A stretch of DNA of 36,405 nt from Nitrospirota bacterium. Its GTDB lineage: Bacteria; NPL-UPA2; JAADIA01. The DNA lies in NCBI GenBank assembly GCA_013151555.1, contig JAADIA010000002.1, positions 1 to 36,405 on the forward strand, in the 5' to 3' direction. The translations under genes were made by a program, and so were the position numbers. The notes beneath the pieces are model-generated. The model had not been told where the DNA came from. It saw only the letters and a list, made by a program, of their open reading frames with translations, and made no database searches. Positions 2,939-17,417 of this stretch are shown here, one piece after another; within the stretch, counting starts at the first letter, position 1; the number at the start of each line of letters is the position of its first letter.

Positions 2939-3409
2939 CTAACCCTTACAGCACAACCCGTCTTTATTCTCCTTGATCCGGGCCAAGATATCCGGAAAAC
3001 TTTCTAAAACCTCGACGGACAATTCCTGACCGTAAGATAAATTCCCGGGCTGAATACCGATGATATATACTTTGCTCTTTATCTCGAGCATCTTAGACAA
3101 TCTCGCCAGGTCTTTTAAAGACAAACTATGGCTGGAAACTCTGTTTTTATCTACCGGTAAATTTATATCTTCCAGGGCAAATAACTTTACCTTACCTACC
3201 TCGGCGCCAAAATCAACGGCATCAATTATAAAAGTGACCGCATATTCTTTGATATAATTCAAGATATCAATACTTTTCGTAGCAAACTCGAGAAAATCAA
3301 AGTTCCGCAGGCTTAATCTTTCTTTTAAATATCCCAGCGCTTTTATTCCCACACCATCGTCGCTGCGCAAGGTATTACCCACGCCGGCAATCAAATACCG
3401 CTCAGGCAA
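2939..3409 (-). CDS. [NiFe] hydrogenase maturation endopeptidase (M52/HyaD family)
   Basis: This family trims the C-terminal peptide of the [NiFe] large subunit after nickel insertion. The 156 residues show GVGNTLRSDDGVG at 9-21 and IIDAVDFG with Asp63, which with His94 in SSHSLS match the nickel-sensing acidic and histidine residues of HybD-type proteases. IIGIQPGNLSYG is also typical. The gene overlaps the end of hydA by 8 nt and is the last gene of the hydrogenase block, so it is very probably specific for HydA, whose uncleaved C-terminal extension is present. An odd cysteine pair ends the protein (GLCCKG). A general (multi-substrate) protease is possible but less likely given the overlap. 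Confidence 0.95.
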   Translation of the reverse strand: MPERYLIAGVGNTLRSDDGVGIKALGYLKERLSLRNFDFLEFATKSIDILNYIKEYAVTFIIDAVDFGAEVGKVKLFALEDINLPVDKNRVSSHSLSLKDLARLSKMLEIKSKVYIIGIQPGNLSYGQELSVEVLESFPDILARIKENKDGLCCKG

Positions 3410-4745
3410 AATTTACCTCCAGCAAGTGGGTAGAACATGATATGCAGGGGTCATAGGCCCGAGCCAGCATTTCTAATTCCAACTGTACTTGTTCTTTTGA
3501 CTTTTCAGCAACAAGTTCGGGAACTATCTTTTTCATATCATCCTCCAGGTTAAACAGGTTCTGACCGGTAGGAATGATACAGTTTGCCCGTTTGATAATT
3601 CCGTGTTTATCCACAGTATAATCATGATAGAGCGTCCCGCGGGGTACCTCCACCGCCCCCACACCCCGGCCGGGATTTACCCGAACCGGCCGTTTTTCCT
3701 GTACGGGCCAGGAGGTAACCAGAGAAGCTTTCTCATCCAGGCCTTTATCCAGCAGACGGTCTATTATATTTATGGATTCTTCCAGACAATGCCGCCACTC
3801 AACCACCTGAGCCAGAGTATTCAGGTAAGGATTATGGCAAGGGGGTTTCAAGCCAAGTTTCCCGGCGGCTTTTTTTGCCTCCGGATGGAGAAATTTAAAG
3901 TTGTTATTGAAACGCGCCAGCGCTCCTACCGTGTAGGAGTTATCACGAATAGAGGAAAACTTTGCCGTGGAATAAGCGCGAATGAATTCATTCACCAAAG
4001 TTAAGTAATCCTGGGGGTCCGTGCTTTTTTCAGTAGAACTCACATAAATGTTTCCATTCAGATACGCATACTTTCCCGGTTGCTTCAAAGAAACATATTG
4101 AGTAGCCCGTTGAAATTCCGGGAGCTTCAGCGTGCCAAACACTTCAATGGTTGTCTCATAATCTTTTCTGGACTCAATCATCAGCTTGCGGATTTTAGCC
4201 AGGTTTTTCTCGCTCGGAAGTTTGGTAAGTCCTCCGATGACATAGCTGATGGGATGGACATGCCTGCCCGCTAAAATCTCACTCATATAGTCCGACATTT
4301 TCTTCATTCGCAAAGCTATATCAATGACCTTACGATGGGTTTTAATCAGGGGGAAAATACTCTTCACTCCCAAGAGGTCCGGGGCTACCAGGATATAAAA
4401 ATGCAGCAGGTGACTATCCATCGTCTCCGCGTGTAAAAGCAGTTCCCGGAGCATTACAGTCTGCGGACTCGGTTTAATGCTCAAAGCCGCTTCGGCGGCT
4501 TTTATGGAAGCCAGGCTATGCCCGCAGGCACATATCCCACAAATACGGCTGGTTAAATGCTGCGCCTCGTAGATAGAGCGTCCCACCAGCATGGATTCAA
4601 AAAAACGCGGCGACTCGATTACTTCAAAACGGCAATCGCTTAACTGGCCGTTCTTAATCTTGACGATAATATTTCCGTGACCTTCTACGCGAGTCAGATA
4701 TTTTACTTCTATGTTCAGGTTATCTTTTTTTGATTTCTTGGTCAT
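3402..4745 (-). CDS. hydA: Group 3b [NiFe] hydrogenase large (alpha) subunit
   Basis: This subunit carries the Ni-Fe active site. The start chosen is ATG at 4745, preceded by GGAGGGGAAAAAT, and gives 447 residues. An upstream in-frame ATG at 4796 lacks such a site. The proximal ligand motif is RICGICACGHS (Cys69, Cys72, His76). The distal motif is DPCISCSTH (Cys434, Cys437, His440), followed by a seven-residue tail expected to be removed by the adjacent M52 protease. The N-terminal YLTRVEGHGN is the L0 motif. The start lies inside the 3' end of hydD (26-nt overlap), consistent with translational coupling. The partner genes make it a cytoplasmic NADP-linked sulfhydrogenase-type enzyme. Confidence 0.95.
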   Translation of the reverse strand: MTKKSKKDNLNIEVKYLTRVEGHGNIIVKIKNGQLSDCRFEVIESPRFFESMLVGRSIYEAQHLTSRICGICACGHSLASIKAAEAALSIKPSPQTVMLRELLLHAETMDSHLLHFYILVAPDLLGVKSIFPLIKTHRKVIDIALRMKKMSDYMSEILAGRHVHPISYVIGGLTKLPSEKNLAKIRKLMIESRKDYETTIEVFGTLKLPEFQRATQYVSLKQPGKYAYLNGNIYVSSTEKSTDPQDYLTLVNEFIRAYSTAKFSSIRDNSYTVGALARFNNNFKFLHPEAKKAAGKLGLKPPCHNPYLNTLAQVVEWRHCLEESINIIDRLLDKGLDEKASLVTSWPVQEKRPVRVNPGRGVGAVEVPRGTLYHDYTVDKHGIIKRANCIIPTGQNLFNLEDDMKKIVPELVAEKSKEQVQLELEMLARAYDPCISCSTHLLEVNFA

Positions 4746-5487
4746 ATTTTTCCCCTCCGCAGGCAGAATACAGACTAAACTTAGCAAGCATCTCATCCAG
4801 TTTCAATCCGTACTTATCCAGAATATCTCTTTGCGCATCTACAGCCGGATTATCCACAAGTCCCCGGCAAGAATAACAGATATTATTGTTATTAATACAC
4901 CACGAACCACATCCGGCACGCGTGACCGGCCCCAGGCAATCCTGCCCTTTCTGATACAGACAGACATTCTCATTCATTTTACATTCCATACATACCGGGT
5001 AATTGGGCATATCGTATTTCTTACCGGCCAAGATACATTTAAAGACCTCGGCTACCTCGTTTAAATGCACCGGGCATCCCTGAATATAGTAGTCGACCTT
5101 AATAAAACAATCAATCGGTTTTACCGGCAAGGTTTCGAAGTTCTTGCCTTTGTCTCCGTAAACACGGTGCTGGGCTATCCCGGGAGGATTAAGGTTCTTA
5201 ACAGCATTAACCCCGCCAATGGTAGCACAAGCTCCCAGGGCCACAATTGTTTTTGCCTGCCGGCGAATTTTAACCAGACGTTCAATATCATGCGGGGTGG
5301 AGACTGAACCTTCTACTACAGCCACGTCATAATCATTGCGTCTTTCGCTTGTTGCTTCCCGGAAATTGACGATCTCTATATGCTCCAGCAACTCTACAAG
5401 AACAGTGTTCAAATTCACTATCTGCAACTGACAACCCTCGCAATCCGTAAAATCAAAAAAAGCAAATTTTGGTTTTTTATTCTTCAC
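4720..5487 (-). CDS. hydD: Group 3b [NiFe] hydrogenase small (delta) subunit
   Basis: This is the electron-transfer subunit that binds iron-sulfur clusters next to HydA. The GTG start at 5487 has GGGGGAGG upstream and forms a GTGA overlap with the hydG stop. It gives 255 residues. Visible motifs are FDFTDCEGCQ (Cys16, Cys19), VEGSVSTPHD, LGACATIGG and QGCPVHLNE, followed by a cysteine-rich C-terminal half (CMECKMNENVCLYQKGQDC, RAGCGSWC, CYSCRGLVDNP). This matches soluble group 3 small subunits, which lack a Tat signal and membrane anchor. Earlier in-frame starts would run deep into hydG and are rejected. Confidence 0.94.
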   Translation of the reverse strand: MKNKKPKFAFFDFTDCEGCQLQIVNLNTVLVELLEHIEIVNFREATSERRNDYDVAVVEGSVSTPHDIERLVKIRRQAKTIVALGACATIGGVNAVKNLNPPGIAQHRVYGDKGKNFETLPVKPIDCFIKVDYYIQGCPVHLNEVAEVFKCILAGKKYDMPNYPVCMECKMNENVCLYQKGQDCLGPVTRAGCGSWCINNNNICYSCRGLVDNPAVDAQRDILDKYGLKLDEMLAKFSLYSACGGEKYDQEIKKR

Positions 5488-6332
5488 AGTGCCTCCCCCA
5501 GGGTTCTGAGATCCCTGTATTTGAATACCGGCCCTTCCTGGCAAACGTATATCCCGTTTATCTGGCAATGTCCGCATTTACCCAAACCGCATTTCATCCG
5601 CCGCTCGAGCGAAAGAATTATTTGCCGGTCAGGAATACCTTTCTTCAACAGTTCCTTAATTACGAATTTATACATTACCGGCGGTCCTACTACCACCGCA
5701 TAGGTACGCATAGGATTCAAGGTAACTCCCGGGATAAGATTGGTAATCAAACCGATATTCCCTTTCCAATCCGGGTCAGCTTTATCCACGGTGCATTGAA
5801 ACAAGATATCTATATGCCGGCCCCATTGTTCCACCTCATCGTTAAACAACATATCTTCAGGGCTTTTACAGCCTAATAATATCTGTACCTCTCCAAAGTC
5901 TTTTCTCTGATGCATAATGTAGCGGATAAGCCCTCTTAAAGGAACAATGCCCAGTCCCCCGGCAATAATTAAAATATCATTTCCAAAAAAATCATCTATG
6001 GGAAACCCCTTGCCGAAAGGACCGCGCACCCCGATAAGGTCGCCTTTTTTCAAATTATGTAAAGCCCCGGTCAGAGAGCCCACGTTTCTTACCGTTATTT
6101 CAAAATAACCTTTATCGGTCGGTGAAGAACATAGAGAAATCGGCGCTTCTCCGGACCCGAATATGGAAATCTCCATAAACTGACCCGGCACATAATCAAA
6201 CTCGGCGTTTCCTTTCAGCCGCAAGCGGAAAAGTTTTTCCAGGGAAGTATAAGGCTTTACCGCTATAATCTCCGCCGGCAAAGTCCGGTAAGGTGAATAC
6301 GGTATTATTTTTTTAAATTCCGATTGAAACAT
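5484..6332 (-). CDS. hydG: Group 3b hydrogenase gamma subunit, FAD/NAD(P)-binding reductase
   Basis: HydG links the hydrogenase to NAD(P)H. The 282 residues follow the ferredoxin-NADP reductase-like fold. The FAD-binding part includes VPGQFMEISIFG and ISLCSSP (about 48-71). The nucleotide-binding part is ILIIAGGLGIVPLRGLIRY (about 120-138) and VVVGPPVMYK (213-222). A C-terminal [2Fe-2S] motif has Cys248, Cys253, Cys256 and Cys264 (MKCGLGKCGHCQINGIYVCQ). The gene overlaps hydB by 20 nt and hydD by 4 nt, so all four subunits are tightly coupled. It resembles PyrK-type electron-transfer subunits, but the context assigns it to the hydrogenase. Confidence 0.94.
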   Translation of the reverse strand: MFQSEFKKIIPYSPYRTLPAEIIAVKPYTSLEKLFRLRLKGNAEFDYVPGQFMEISIFGSGEAPISLCSSPTDKGYFEITVRNVGSLTGALHNLKKGDLIGVRGPFGKGFPIDDFFGNDILIIAGGLGIVPLRGLIRYIMHQRKDFGEVQILLGCKSPEDMLFNDEVEQWGRHIDILFQCTVDKADPDWKGNIGLITNLIPGVTLNPMRTYAVVVGPPVMYKFVIKELLKKGIPDRQIILSLERRMKCGLGKCGHCQINGIYVCQEGPVFKYRDLRTLGEAL

Positions 6333-7365
6333 TTCTGTGCTCCTTTATTAAATCATTAACGGTTTCTGTTAAGTTTATTTTTGCCATACAGGTACGACTG
6401 CAACGCCCGCATCCGGTACAGAAGTAACGGTTGAATTTATCTATGGGATATTTGAATTTGCGATAATAACGGTGCCTTTGTCTACTGACCCGGCCGGGAC
6501 GAAAATCTTCTCCTCCGGCCACGCGGGCAAAGTCATCCATCTGGCAGGAATTCCACCACCGGTAACGCAGACCGTCGTTTAAGTTCAAATCCAACTCATC
6601 TTTAACATCAAAGCAGTAACAGGTCGGGCAGACCGTAGTACAGTTTCCACATCCTACGCAACGCTTACCCACATCATCCCAAACTCCGCTTTCGCTCAAC
6701 TTGGAAAAAACGGTATAGACTTCCGTAAGTTGCCCGATAAATTCTTCTTTAAAAACCCTTTCCTTATTTTTGCGAAGGGAATCCAGCAAGTTCCTGTCCG
6801 CCTGGGTGCATTTCTTGATGTAGGAATGTCCCTGGAGGATATCTTCACCCTTTTGAGAGTTAAGATGAATGATATAGCTGCCTTTAATCTCGGTAAGCAT
6901 AATATCGTATCCCCCCCGGGGTACGTGATTACCCATAGACACACAGCTTGCGTGTTTATCACACGGTTTAAGACACTCGATTCCCACAGTAGTCATGCGG
7001 TCTTTACGATTAATATAGTTCGGGTCAAGAGGGTCTTCGCGAAAGACAACATCCATACATTGTATACCGGCTAGGTCACAGGTATGTACCCCGAAGAGAA
7101 CAAACTCCTCAAATTTTTGGATGGCCTTTGCCGTCTCAAATGGTTTTATGCTGAATTTAAGCAACGATTCTTTCTGGGGAAAATAGTATTTTTTGGGCGG
7201 CAATATCGTGGAGATATAATTCAAATCAAGTTCGGATGAATCCTTGATAGGTCTAAAGACATGAGTATTTTCTTTTCTTTTCGGAGCATAGACCTTACCA
7301 TGCTTTTTTAGCGAATCAACCCATTTATAAAAATCCTTCTTACTTATTTTTACATATCTTTCCAT
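6313..7365 (-). CDS. hydB: Group 3b hydrogenase beta subunit, two [4Fe-4S] clusters
   Basis: HydB relays electrons between HydG and HydD. The 350 residues carry two ferredoxin-type cysteine sets, Cys236/239/242/246 (RCVGCGNCTTVC) and Cys316/319/322/326 (FCTGCGRCSRTC), as in Pyrococcus HydB. The extra cysteines at 96, 103, 131, 135 and 141 (GVHTCDLAGIQC, ECLKPCDKHASC) are also typical of the family. The ATG is preceded by AAAGGAGCGGAT. It is the first gene of the order hydB-hydG-hydD-hydA, the canonical group 3b arrangement. It begins 86 nt after the PEP carboxykinase stop, so it may share that transcript. Confidence 0.94.
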   Translation of the reverse strand: MERYVKISKKDFYKWVDSLKKHGKVYAPKRKENTHVFRPIKDSSELDLNYISTILPPKKYYFPQKESLLKFSIKPFETAKAIQKFEEFVLFGVHTCDLAGIQCMDVVFREDPLDPNYINRKDRMTTVGIECLKPCDKHASCVSMGNHVPRGGYDIMLTEIKGSYIIHLNSQKGEDILQGHSYIKKCTQADRNLLDSLRKNKERVFKEEFIGQLTEVYTVFSKLSESGVWDDVGKRCVGCGNCTTVCPTCYCFDVKDELDLNLNDGLRYRWWNSCQMDDFARVAGGEDFRPGRVSRQRHRYYRKFKYPIDKFNRYFCTGCGRCSRTCMAKINLTETVNDLIKEHRNVSIGI

Positions 7366-7419
7366 ATCCGCTCCTTTCAGATAAGGTTAAGGGCCCAGGG
7401 CCACATAAGACCTCTTTCA

Positions 7420-7444
7420 ATTCGGGGGCAAGACCCCTGCGAAT
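7420..7444 (-). other. Hairpin between PEP carboxykinase and hydB
   Basis: On the minus strand ATTCG and CGAAT pair perfectly, enclosing AGGGG and CCCCC segments around a short TCTTG loop. No T-run follows, so it is not a standard terminator. It could stabilise or process the mRNA between the two genes, or be a palindromic intergenic element. Confidence 0.5.
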
Positions 7445-7451
7445 CCAACTA

Positions 7452-9344
7452 TTACGGGGTTTCCTGACCTCGGAATACAGACGGAGGAACATAATCTCCG
7501 TACTTTGCCCCGGCAATTTCCAATCTCTCTTTCTGTTCTGCGAGAACATTGACCAAAACCTCAGGGGTATCAGATACCTTTCTCGTGTATACTTCGGTGA
7601 TTCTTTCGATTTTAGCAAGGTTTTCCGGAATCCTTAAAGTAAACTGTTTCAGATAATCATCCTCGGGATAATCCTTATCAAGGACTTCTGCAAACAATCT
7701 TTTGAGGTCTTCGTATTGAGGAACATAACCGGTGGGAGTTTTAATCGCTTCCACATCCCGGTTAATACGAAGCTCCATCCATTTAATCCAGACCCGTTTA
7801 TCCTCCATAGCCGTCAAATATTTCCCCCCTTTATCCTTGAGGAAGTAATTAACCGAAAAAATTGAGGGAGGAACATCTACGCCTTCAACAAACTTAAGGT
7901 GATTATCAATATATTTACCAAGAGGGATAGAAACAAAATCAATGTTAGACATAGGGTTTAATTGCCGCACCCCTTCTTTTCCTAAAGTTGCCGCCGTGGT
8001 CTCCGATTCCAGAGAAGCACCCATTGTTATTACTCCATGAACCCAGTCAAACGCTTCCTGCACGGGAGGACAAATACTGGAATCTCTACCTCCATAAATT
8101 ATCCCCTTCGTCTCCACGCCTTCAGGGTTGTCTAATTCCGGGTCAACATTTTTAAGAGCATAAAGGCTGACCGTATAGCGGGCATTCTTATGAGCATGGG
8201 GAATATCATTACCCTGAAAATCTTTTTTTCCTTTGTACCACTGGCCGGAATAATTGACTCCTCTTTCGGGTATTTCTCTCCCCCCTCCCAGCCAGTAAGG
8301 AATCCCTTCCTCAGATACCAGAACATTGGAGAAAATTACCTCTCCCGGAGAAGTCAGGGCTTCCCAGATTGCCGGGTCATCCTTGGGATTAACATCCCTT
8401 AGAATTCCAAATATGCCCCCCTCAACATTGACAGCATAAATCTTCCCTTTTTTCTTTCTCAAGTAAGCTATATCGTCGCCAACAATAGTTTCACCTTTCA
8501 GCATCGCCGTTGAAGTTTTTCCGCACGTACTGGGAAAAGCCCCGGCAAGGTATGATATCCTTTTTCCCGGACCGTGAATTCCCATAACCAGCATATGCTC
8601 TGCAAGCCATCCTTCCTGGGATGCTTTGCGAACGGCCAGCCGCAGAGAAAGCTTCTTAAGGCCAACGGTATTGCCGGCATACTGAGTATTTATACTGTAA
8701 ACTATTGCTTCCTCCAGGTCAATATATATTCTTCTTTTATCGACATTCTTACTAACCCCTTTCTCCAGAACTCCGGCACTATGCACATACCTAAAAAACC
8801 GGTTGGTACTACCCATTCTCTTAAGCTGTTCGTATCCCCTCCGATAAAGAATATATTCCGAATGCGCCACATAACTTGAATCGGTTATCTGAACACAGGG
8901 GAGAGAGAACTCAGAATTTGTCGGCCCCAGGCAGAAAAACAACACATACATCTCCCTGCCAGCCATAATATTTTTAAAATATCCGGATATTTCCTCCAAC
9001 CCCTCCTGCTTATCTACCGTGTTAAGCGAAGCTCCCAAATCAGTGTCTCCGGGAAGAAGATACTTGGTGTTTGCCTTATCTCTCGCCTGATCATTAACGC
9101 CATCAAAATGTATAGTATGCCCTTCTATGGCAAGTTTTCTCTCCTCTCCATTCTCTAAAGATTTGTTTCTTATATACTGTCTATCATCTTCAGAATCATT
9201 GCAAACATAAACAGAACCGGGATGACAAAGTTTTACATATTTTTCCACAAAATCAAGAACTCCGGGATTGTTCAACGCTACCAACTTTTTGTAGTTTTCT
9301 TCGCTGCATTTAGCCTTAAGCAATGTAACAGCTTCCTCTTCCAT
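7452..9344 (-). CDS. pckG: Phosphoenolpyruvate carboxykinase (GTP)
   Basis: This enzyme interconverts oxaloacetate + GTP and phosphoenolpyruvate + CO2 + GDP. The start chosen is ATG at 9344 with GAGGGAG upstream; it gives 630 residues, the normal size of GTP-type enzymes. The kinase loop AGAFPSTCGKTSTAM holds the reactive Cys274 and Lys276. The second metal/nucleotide motif is VGDDIAYLR (about 289-297). SEYILYRRGYEQL and GSTNRFFRYVHS belong to the substrate-binding half. It precedes the hydrogenase operon by 86 nt. Upstream lies a ~300-nt leader with a terminator-like hairpin. The sequence alone does not tell whether it works in the gluconeogenic or the carboxylating direction. Confidence 0.95.
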   Translation of the reverse strand: MEEEAVTLLKAKCSEENYKKLVALNNPGVLDFVEKYVKLCHPGSVYVCNDSEDDRQYIRNKSLENGEERKLAIEGHTIHFDGVNDQARDKANTKYLLPGDTDLGASLNTVDKQEGLEEISGYFKNIMAGREMYVLFFCLGPTNSEFSLPCVQITDSSYVAHSEYILYRRGYEQLKRMGSTNRFFRYVHSAGVLEKGVSKNVDKRRIYIDLEEAIVYSINTQYAGNTVGLKKLSLRLAVRKASQEGWLAEHMLVMGIHGPGKRISYLAGAFPSTCGKTSTAMLKGETIVGDDIAYLRKKKGKIYAVNVEGGIFGILRDVNPKDDPAIWEALTSPGEVIFSNVLVSEEGIPYWLGGGREIPERGVNYSGQWYKGKKDFQGNDIPHAHKNARYTVSLYALKNVDPELDNPEGVETKGIIYGGRDSSICPPVQEAFDWVHGVITMGASLESETTAATLGKEGVRQLNPMSNIDFVSIPLGKYIDNHLKFVEGVDVPPSIFSVNYFLKDKGGKYLTAMEDKRVWIKWMELRINRDVEAIKTPTGYVPQYEDLKRLFAEVLDKDYPEDDYLKQFTLRIPENLAKIERITEVYTRKVSDTPEVLVNVLAEQKERLEIAGAKYGDYVPPSVFRGQETP

Positions 9345-9510
9345 AACAATGGTCTCCCTCTTCGGTAAAAGCACTTATCTGGTTCGCTTTTGCTCCCTGT
9401 TCCTCCCGGTCCGACTAAAGCAGGAAAAGCCTTCCGGGAATCCCTTCCCTAATAACCCCTGAAATCATAGCAACATAAATAAAAAAACTTTTCTGCGTTA
9501 CCATACTTTT

Positions 9511-9576
9511 AAAAAAAGCCAACATCATCCCCTTACTCCCTTCCATAAGAGAAATAGAAGATACTGATGTTGGTTT
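9511..9576 (-). terminator. Terminator-like stem in the leader of PEP carboxykinase
   Basis: On the minus strand the arms AACCAACATCA and TGATGTTGGC (9 bp of perfect pairing plus flanking A-T and G-T pairs) enclose a 37-nt loop and are followed at once by seven T. It could end transcription from the V4R gene, or act as an attenuator if the promoter at 9649-9675 is real. The long loop lowers confidence. Confidence 0.55.
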
Positions 9577-9648
9577 ACTGAACAACAATCCCTTCTGAAT
9601 TCAGGGATCCTTACCTTAGTATTCCAGGATATTATTTCTTGCTGATAT

Positions 9649-9675
9649 ATTCTATCACGGAAAAAATTCAGTCAA
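9649..9675 (-). promoter_or_regulatory. Candidate promoter for PEP carboxykinase
   Basis: On the minus strand: TTGACT, a 15-nt spacer, then TAGAAT preceded by TG one base upstream (extended -10, TGATAGAAT). The predicted start near 9642 leaves a leader of about 300 nt before the ATG at 9344. The spacer is short, but the extended -10 compensates. Confidence 0.5.
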
Positions 9676-9766
9676 CTACTTTATTCTCTCATGAATTTGT
9701 TTCTAAGTCTTGACCTAATGTAAAAACAATAATACTATAAATAAACTTTGTTGTCACTATCTTCGC

Positions 9767-10282
9767 TTAGGAGGTTTGTTCTATCTTGACTTCAAACCGG
9801 CAGATCCCTGCTCCTGTTGCCCAACAATCTATTTCTTTGACCGTAGGCATCACTTTCAAGAAACTGGAAAGAAGCCCGGCAATTAGTCCTTCATCCCAAG
9901 CACATTTGGTCTCGCCGTCTACGGAAACCCCGGAACAGTCCAGGTCTTCAGAAATTGTCAGCAGAAACCTCATTTTTTTCTCATCGGCCTCTTCCACTTT
10001 AAAAATTCCTACCTTAAGGTCGTTAAAAATAGTATCGACTTTTATCATTAAATCAGAGAAATCGGTGACCTCCCCAACCAAATTCAGAAAAACCTCTTGT
10101 CCCGCTAATTTTCCAGCGGCGACAAATATCTCTCGGGATTTCTCCTTGCCTAATTGAGAATTAAGGACTTGCCGCAGGGTAAAGTATAACAAGCGATAGG
10201 CAGAAACATTCGTCCAGGATCCCAAAGTCGGCCTTCCTTGTTCAATATTTCCAAGATCTCCCCACTCGAATCTTTCCTTCAT
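9767..10282 (-). CDS. V4R (4-vinyl reductase) domain protein, small-molecule sensor type
   Basis: The 171 residues form one V4R domain. The diagnostic C-terminal part is DLDCSGVSVDGETKCAWDEG, then GLLSSFLKVMPTVKEIDCWA and TGAGICRFEVKI. Conserved Cys residues and the GxxxCxF ending match V4R domains, which bind metals or small hydrophobic ligands and are found in chlorophyll biosynthesis (BchJ), XylR/DmpR-type activators and archaeal homologues. The ATG at 10282 has a strong GGAAGGAGGGG site. A longer in-frame reading would run through the tRNA-Asp gene and is rejected. No fused output domain is present, so its partner is unknown. A promoter lies 71 nt upstream. Confidence 0.85.
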   Translation of the reverse strand: MKERFEWGDLGNIEQGRPTLGSWTNVSAYRLLYFTLRQVLNSQLGKEKSREIFVAAGKLAGQEVFLNLVGEVTDFSDLMIKVDTIFNDLKVGIFKVEEADEKKMRFLLTISEDLDCSGVSVDGETKCAWDEGLIAGLLSSFLKVMPTVKEIDCWATGAGICRFEVKIEQTS

Positions 10283-16436: not shown

Positions 16437-17417
16437 TCAGCGCAATCTGACCCGGGGATCGACCCAGGCATAGCAGATATCGGAAAGCAGGTTGGCAAAA
16501 ACATAGAGGACCGATCCGATGAAGACGAGCGCTTTCATCACCGGAAAATCCGAAGACAGGAAGGCATTAATAAACATATCTCCCAATCCGGGAATGCCAA
16601 AAAATCTTTCCAACAAAAGAGAGCCGGTGTAAAGGAAAGGAAGAGCAATGACCAACACGGTGATGATCGGGATGAGGGAGTTTTTCAAGATATGCTTGAA
16701 GAGCACCGCTTTCTTATTCAAGCCTTTAGCAAAGGCTGTCCTTACATAATCCTGTTTAGTCTCATCAAGCATAACCGTCCGGAAAAATCTAATGTTGGAA
16801 CCGAGACCACTAATGACCCAGATAAGACCGGGCAACACCAGATATTTAAGGCCCGCAAACCCTCTCGCATAGCCGTGAATGGGAAACAACTTCAGCTTAA
16901 AAGCCAGAATGTACTGACCCCCGATTATATAAGCCAGCATGCTCACGCTCATTCCGGTAATACTTAAGATAACCAGGGACTTATCAATAAAAGAATTGCG
17001 ATAGAAAGCGCAAAAGAGAGCGATACAGATTCCCAACAGCGACCCGAAGATAAAGGCAGGCACCATAAGGCTAAGAGAGGGACCGAGACCATCGAGGAGC
17101 ATTGTGGATACCTTCTGCTTGGTGCTATAGGAACGGCCAAAGTTCAAGGTGACAATCTGCTTCAGGTAGAAGACGAATTGCGAGTCAAAAGCCGCCTTAA
17201 GATTTCCCTTCTTCAAAGCTTCCCCATTGACAAAGAGAGGCTTATCAAATCCCAACTGGTGTTCGATATCCTTTATTACCTCCTCTGTGGCATGTTTACC
17301 CGCCAGCACCTCAGCAGGGTTACCTCCGGCGATATGAAAAAGAAGAAAGGTGATTAAAGCTACTCCAAAGACGATAGGGATAATATATAGCGTCCGGCGG
17401 ATAATGTATCTCAACAT
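16437..17417 (-). CDS. oppB: Oligopeptide/dipeptide ABC transporter permease (OppB/DppB)
   Basis: Inner-membrane partner of OppC. The 326 residues begin MLRYIIRRTLYIIPIVFGVA, the standard OppB first helix, followed by a periplasmic region with GFDKPLFV and TLNFGRSYST. Five further helices include SLMVPAFIFGSLLGICIALF and VLVIALPFLYTGSLLLERFF. The coupling loop is KQDYVRTAFAKGLNKKAVLF, and the protein closes with YAWVDPRVRLR. It begins 1 nt after the oppA stop and ends about 22 nt before the oppC start, so the three form one unit. Confidence 0.95.
   Translation of the reverse strand: MLRYIIRRTLYIIPIVFGVALITFLLFHIAGGNPAEVLAGKHATEEVIKDIEHQLGFDKPLFVNGEALKKGNLKAAFDSQFVFYLKQIVTLNFGRSYSTKQKVSTMLLDGLGPSLSLMVPAFIFGSLLGICIALFCAFYRNSFIDKSLVILSITGMSVSMLAYIIGGQYILAFKLKLFPIHGYARGFAGLKYLVLPGLIWVISGLGSNIRFFRTVMLDETKQDYVRTAFAKGLNKKAVLFKHILKNSLIPIITVLVIALPFLYTGSLLLERFFGIPGLGDMFINAFLSSDFPVMKALVFIGSVLYVFANLLSDICYAWVDPRVRLR

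Follow-up and report, generated by a model that had tools for sequence, protein, structure and literature searches.

Does the leader of the PEP carboxykinase gene (pck) of this Nitrospirota bacterium attenuate transcription? A sequence-only reading of the 36,405-nt stretch that we analyzed (the window) had suggested that it might. Upstream of the gene, that reading saw a TTGACT/extended -10 promoter, a small hairpin, a stem with seven T, and about 170 nt more before the ATG, and it compared this order to riboswitch or protein-controlled attenuation. We find that the leader probably does contain a terminator. On the other hand, in sequence comparisons the T-run and much of the sequence after it resemble a scattered repeat of which a degenerate copy would lie here. 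With about as much doubt as confidence, we favor a lineage-specific long 5' UTR that bears this repeat and a constitutive, partly effective terminator.

The start of pck at ATG 9344 agrees with the starts of its orthologs in two genomes of the same order, G001 and G004. Three tRNA genes and a V4R-domain gene precede pck, and the 422-nt gap between the V4R gene and pck contains every part named in the sequence-only reading (Table 1). Directly 3' of pck, on the same strand, are genes for a 4Fe-4S protein, an FAD/NAD oxidoreductase, a 20-kDa-type subunit, and a NiFe hydrogenase large subunit. These four genes of the NiFe-hydrogenase type adjoin pck (3402-9344, minus strand), and together with it they are perhaps one transcription unit.

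Table 1. Features at the pck locus, in coordinates of the window.
Feature	Position	Strand	Basis or remark
GTP-type PEP carboxykinase gene (pck)	7452..9344	-	Pfam PF00821, PF17297
Ribosome-binding site GAGGGAGA and spacer before pck	9345..9360	-	sequence, by eye
Degenerate, 3'-truncated copy of dispersed repeat	9382..9518	-	BLAST, nhmmer
Open frame through hairpin and repeat, unsupported as a gene	9415..9585	-	56 codons from TTG, 43 from ATG 9546
C + T7 tract, also left edge of repeat copy	9511..9518	-	T7 = 9517-9511
Terminator-like hairpin, 22 pairs in three helices	9519..9573	-	folding, shuffles
Small hairpin ATCCCT/AGGGAT	9588..9608	-	inverted repeat; region folds at chance level
Promoter-like site TTGACT-15-TGA-TAGAAT, extended -10	9649..9675	-	score 12.5, highest in the gap
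Promoter-like site GTGACA-17-TATTAT	9729..9757	-	score 11.5, second highest in the gap; also listed by the automated scan
V4R-domain protein gene, upstream of pck, same strand	9767..10282	-	gene call, Pfam

The stem with seven T is present, and the hairpin (9573-9519) is bigger than had been described: 9 pairs, a 3-nt bulge, 6 pairs, a 2x2 loop, 7 pairs, and a tetraloop. Its folding energy is -22.5 kcal/mol (z -3.85), which was equaled by none of 200 shuffles. The stretch 9573-9511 is a stable hairpin that is followed directly by a U-tract, as in an intrinsic terminator, and 166 nt lie between the T7 and the ATG. (An automated terminator scan, with a loop limit of 8, omitted this hairpin.) Longer stretches around the hairpin stand out less: the fold of 9508-9645 has a z of -1.93, with 7 of 200 shuffles as good, and the fold of the whole 301-nt leader has a z of -1.62, with 6 of 100 as good. 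A stem of at least 9 pairs followed by T6 arose in 15 of 2,000 shuffles of the leader.

The order of promoter, hairpin, U-tract, and gene is also present on the minus strand. The expected promoter was recovered at 9675-9649 as the top-scoring site in the gap; a TG lies one base before its -10, and its RNA would start near 9642. When the 422-nt gap was put through 1,000 dinucleotide shuffles, 2.7% of them reached 12.4 with their best site and 0.3% reached 11.4 with their second-best, so this site and the one at 9757-9729 are rare as a pair (0.3%). Sites that score higher (12.6 and 12.9) are found at 2 of the 24 other starts that we compared. Both of the top sites are upstream of the main hairpin, and below it no promoter-like site has a sigma-70 score above 5.3.

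What could decide whether the hairpin forms? The small hairpin is where it was said to be, but the putative sensor region around it (9642-9574, 69 nt) folds at chance level, as 41 of 200 shuffles fold as well (z -0.78). In the whole window, Rfam models match only the three tRNAs, and no riboswitch, T-box, or other cis-element; within 9300-9800 there are two matches, both far below the gathering score, and by E-value, too, nothing exceeds chance level. The sequence-only reading had not recognized a known riboswitch class either. Without the terminator, the best fold of 9645-9508 is at -26.0 instead of -35.9 kcal/mol (9.9 weaker), and the best fold of the whole leader is at -76.4 instead of -82.4 kcal/mol (6.0 weaker), so we did not find an antiterminator of similar stability. 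By eye, GATTGTTG might pair with CAACATC, and TGG..TACT with AGTA..CCA, but we rejected these as antiterminators because the terminator-free folds are 6 to 10 kcal/mol weaker. As for a leader peptide, the stretch from 9645 to the main hairpin contains neither ATG nor GTG, and the only frame across the hairpin that we examined starts with TTG and runs through it. This frame has no match in Pfam and no tblastn match in plasmids. The 43-codon version looks hydrophobic, and we considered but rejected a small membrane protein; besides the lack of Pfam or plasmid matches, the equivalent frame in the homologous DNA of genome G003 differs and stops after 22 codons.

The T-run and 81 nt or more of the leader belong to a repeat, which accounts for them without regulation. 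When the leader was compared to 60 genomes (its own included) with BLAST, there was one match outside of the window at E <= 0.001: 9517-9436 is 77% identical to G003:C26:7678-7760 (E 8.6e-11). At this threshold, leader DNA matches 1 of the 59 other genomes, and only through the repeat part. The copy in G003 lies directly behind a pair of genes that we take, from their translations alone, to be cas1/cas2-like; pck was not found in G003, whose genome is 69% complete. With the G003 copy as the query, 7 of the phylum's 9 genomes have matches at E <= 0.001, many of which are partial and cover just the final 34 nt of the query. A profile of seven other copies (G003:C26; C30, C49, C5, C57, and C79 of G000; and G004:C155, with the window excluded) was searched with nhmmer and matches the window at 9518-9382 with E 2.1e-14, while the next match in the window has E 0.92. 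Since the G003 copy had been picked by a search with the window, we reran the profiles without it. The match was then 9516-9436 at E 2.5e-10, or, if one more copy was removed, 9516-9436 at E 1.4e-10 or 9517-9382 at E 1.2e-10. By these alignments, the assignment of 9516-9436 as the core of the repeat is firm; the extension to 9382, which two of the four profiles reached, is less so. The window's copy is without the repeat's 3' module. It is homologous to copies at unrelated loci, as a dispersed repeat of the phylum should be, and since the profiles match from 9516-9518 on, the T-run is the left edge of a truncated copy.

Other copies of the repeat also tend to have T-rich left ends (at least 5 T in the preceding 12): 11 of 12 copies do at up to 2 substitutions and 17 of 20 do at up to 3 substitutions, as compared to 96 of 392 AAGTAT sites in a sample of the genome. 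These counts span several genomes, include weak matches, and exclude the window, whose own end has 4 substitutions. At L144/L216, in the same genome, a strong terminator lies behind a frame that, by eye, is presumably CspA-like, and the left end of a repeat copy follows at once. So a hairpin, a T-run, and the repeat occur together at least twice. Most of the repeat copies listed have no hairpin before the left end, so the link between hairpins and the repeat rests on two cases.

We found no support for a conserved RNA structure in the repeat itself. RNAalifold on six copies gave -1.69 kcal/mol and 0 compensatory pairs, the named helices were no better than shuffles (their covariation score was reached by 215 of 500, and the third helix is poorly placed on the alignment, with 6.7% paired), and the copies match no Rfam family. 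We also considered whether the 3' module regularly supplies a -35 box and rejected this, as only one case had a -10 hexamer with 5 of 6 matches at the right distance. Two copies are placed like leaders, each behind a promoter-like site that we identified by eye: a nearly full one, in the sense direction, before cysS (L136, G000:C30, 807-603, minus strand), and one before a YqeY-family gene (L156, G004:C155, 1475-1550). G003 has a frequent 31-34-nt repeat module (GAAATGAGGAGCGAAGCGACGAATTTTCTTG and variants) that is often near contig starts (e.g., C6:20-53, C55:21-54, and C113:19-52), as if repeats broke the assembly.

Conservation of the stem had been set beforehand as a test, and at the distances available it is absent. 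None of eight ortholog leaders, six from the same phylum and two from other phyla, has a hairpin like 9573-9519. In G001 and G004, pck is separated from the upstream frame by 84 and 65 nt, without a hairpin, and there is also none before pck in G005-G008 (same phylum) or in G026 and G035 (other phyla). Upper leader DNA (9700-9508) has no match better than E 0.038 elsewhere in the 9 genomes of the phylum, its own included. Because none of the 59 other genomes is of the same genus or family, these results would be no different for a regulated attenuator of recent origin.

Terminator-like hairpins of other sequence precede pck in 2 of the 20 contig loci that we scanned. One is behind a tRNA-like sequence (L004) and the other is behind another frame, 49 nt before the start of pck (L038). 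In L038, which encodes an ortholog from Aerophobetes, the strong hairpin is at 1449-1498 and its T-run ends about 20 nt before the start; this hairpin could either attenuate pck or terminate the upstream gene. The 20 loci, out of 80, were scanned for 450 nt upstream of pck (308 nt for L005). We left out L007 and L017, which have about 100 nt of upstream sequence; L023 and L025, in which the gene is cut; L020; and the 55 loci L026-L037 and L039-L081, which have 31-36% identity.

How common are intrinsic terminators in this genome? Our sample was the window plus 40 stretches, or 663 kb of the 1.81-Mb assembly, and it was not random, as several contigs were chosen for their repeat copies. An initial, permissive scan had many matches in shuffles too, so we used stricter scans. 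The 119 kb that are intergenic by a mechanical gene call contain 13 stems of at least 9 pairs followed by T6, as compared to 2.6 in shuffles. In the first 308 kb, coding sequence included, there were 10 versus 5.5 in shuffles for at least 9 pairs and 15 versus 12.0 for at least 8 pairs. Intrinsic terminators thus exist in this genome but are few. There are 16 intergenic stems of at least 8 pairs, and 6 of them are in a leader-like place: the next start on their strand, by the mechanical call, is 142-168 nt away, and the last stop on that strand is more than 100 nt back. The pck hairpin is among these, 144 nt from GTG 9374, which the mechanical call took as its start, and 174 nt from ATG 9344. 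By eye, at least one of the intergenic stems (L216:6029) seems to mark the end of a gene.

Some other leaders deserve mention. Upstream of ilvD (PF00920; L197, G000:C18, 4035-3635, minus strand), a promoter-like TTGACA at 4035 is followed by a 41-residue peptide that is rich in Leu, Val, and Ile (MQNLLSLLLPVNQVVILLVCLPLILLVKDGIVGREKRFVMF), by an antiterminator-like GATAGTGGG segment that is complementary to the CCCACTATC of the terminator, and by that 13-bp terminator at 3814-3786. A further promoter-like TTGACA-17-TATAAT lies below the terminator (by eye). From its sequence, this looks like leader-peptide attenuation. On the minus strand of L212 (G000:C82, about 19190-18910), a hairpin with a T-run and an 8-bp base stem follows a promoter-like site (by eye); there is no Rfam match, and 142 nt separate the hairpin from a gene that, judging from its first residues, is presumably cbiM. 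In L202 (G000:C40, 11900-12193), a promoter-like site (by eye) and a short frame precede a strong hairpin (z -4.07) that ends in T8, and the next gene, which has no Pfam match, begins after 163 nt; L202 also contains a fluoride riboswitch (17061-17124).

Under the explanation that we favor, RNA polymerase would start at 9757-9729 or 9675-9649. About 70 nt into the second transcript, it would make the strong hairpin and then seven U, where a fraction of the transcripts would end. The remaining transcripts would read through the decayed copy of the repeat into the ribosome-binding site of pck, with nothing regulating the choice. The T-rich left edge of the repeat may have supplied a U-tract beside a pre-existing hairpin, or a terminator may already have been there, with the repeat landing at its T-run. 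Besides the lack of close relatives and the mere two cases that link hairpin and repeat, several points count against this reading: it leaves the origin of the hairpin unexplained, the whole-leader fold without the terminator is weaker by only 6.0 kcal/mol, and the 6 of 16 terminators in a leader-like place could mean real attenuation. A bolder version, which we consider decidedly improbable, is that a repeat with a T-rich left edge inserts behind hairpins, creating or maintaining intrinsic terminators there, as in the pck leader and at the end of the cold-shock-like gene, and would be a mobile source of new attenuators for the lineage.

Alternatively, the hairpin could be a regulated attenuator of pck, with a protein, a small molecule, or the translation of a short frame deciding whether it forms. 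The order of the parts, the promoter-like sites that are significant as a pair, the strength of the hairpin, and the enrichment of terminators in the genome sample would all fit, the ilvD leader suggests that attenuation exists in this genome, and the genome has a fluoride riboswitch. Against it, there is no match in Rfam, the sensor region folds at chance, no competing fold comes within 6 to 10 kcal/mol, the ortholog leaders of the phylum do not have the hairpin, and a short frame would have no ATG or GTG to start from between 9645 and the hairpin. We find regulation of this kind rather doubtful. It also seems unlikely to us that the hairpin ends another transcript, either the tail of the V4R and tRNA genes or an independent RNA, some 130 nt long and with its own promoter, while pck is expressed from a downstream promoter that is invisible to a sigma-70 score. 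The V4R gene is on the same strand and ends upstream at 9767, a promoter-like site and the terminator do frame an RNA-sized unit, and the terminators that precede pck at two orthologous loci can be attributed to a tRNA-like sequence or a frame lying upstream. However, the 193 nt from the V4R stop to the hairpin is long for a gene-end terminator, and it includes two promoter-like sites; the best promoter score downstream is just 5.3, and a search of the phylum's 9 genomes gave nothing better than E 0.038 for such an RNA. Finally, the hairpin and T-run could be a chance or decayed structure with no effect on transcription. Given about 2.6 expected and 13 seen in 119 kb of intergenic DNA, roughly one in five such stems may be due to chance, and the T-run here is explained by the repeat. 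Yet none of 200 shuffles folds as well as this hairpin (z -3.85), and we view this explanation as very improbable.

If the pck leader truly terminates transcription, then the flux into gluconeogenesis would be set in part by read-through at a repeat-assisted site. Our results are also a warning that leaders with a promoter, a hairpin, and a T-run that are spotted by eye can be assembled from the edges of repeats. Closely related leaders are needed before attenuation is called.

How does this leader compare to known systems? Like intrinsic leader terminators and attenuators, it has a promoter-like site, a hairpin, U7, and then the gene. Unlike attenuators, it shows no conserved sensor in the genomes compared, no antiterminator of similar stability, and no leader peptide with an ATG or GTG before the hairpin. 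Among the matches listed from our literature search, no title concerned an attenuator of pck. Within the same genome, the ilvD leader has a similar layout (a promoter-like site, about 220 nt, a terminator, 150 nt, and the start codon), but we saw nothing in the pck leader like its Leu/Val/Ile-rich peptide or its terminator-complementary GATAGTGGG. As for the repeat, two core strings of 15-16 letters were not found in the literature text that was searched. REP-type palindromic repeats of the GTAG and CGTC families are described as dispersed palindromic units that are often extragenic (PMC3733652). Our repeat resembles them at this general level. Unlike the REP-type repeats as described there, the longest copy of our repeat is about 190 nt and contains several inverted repeats.
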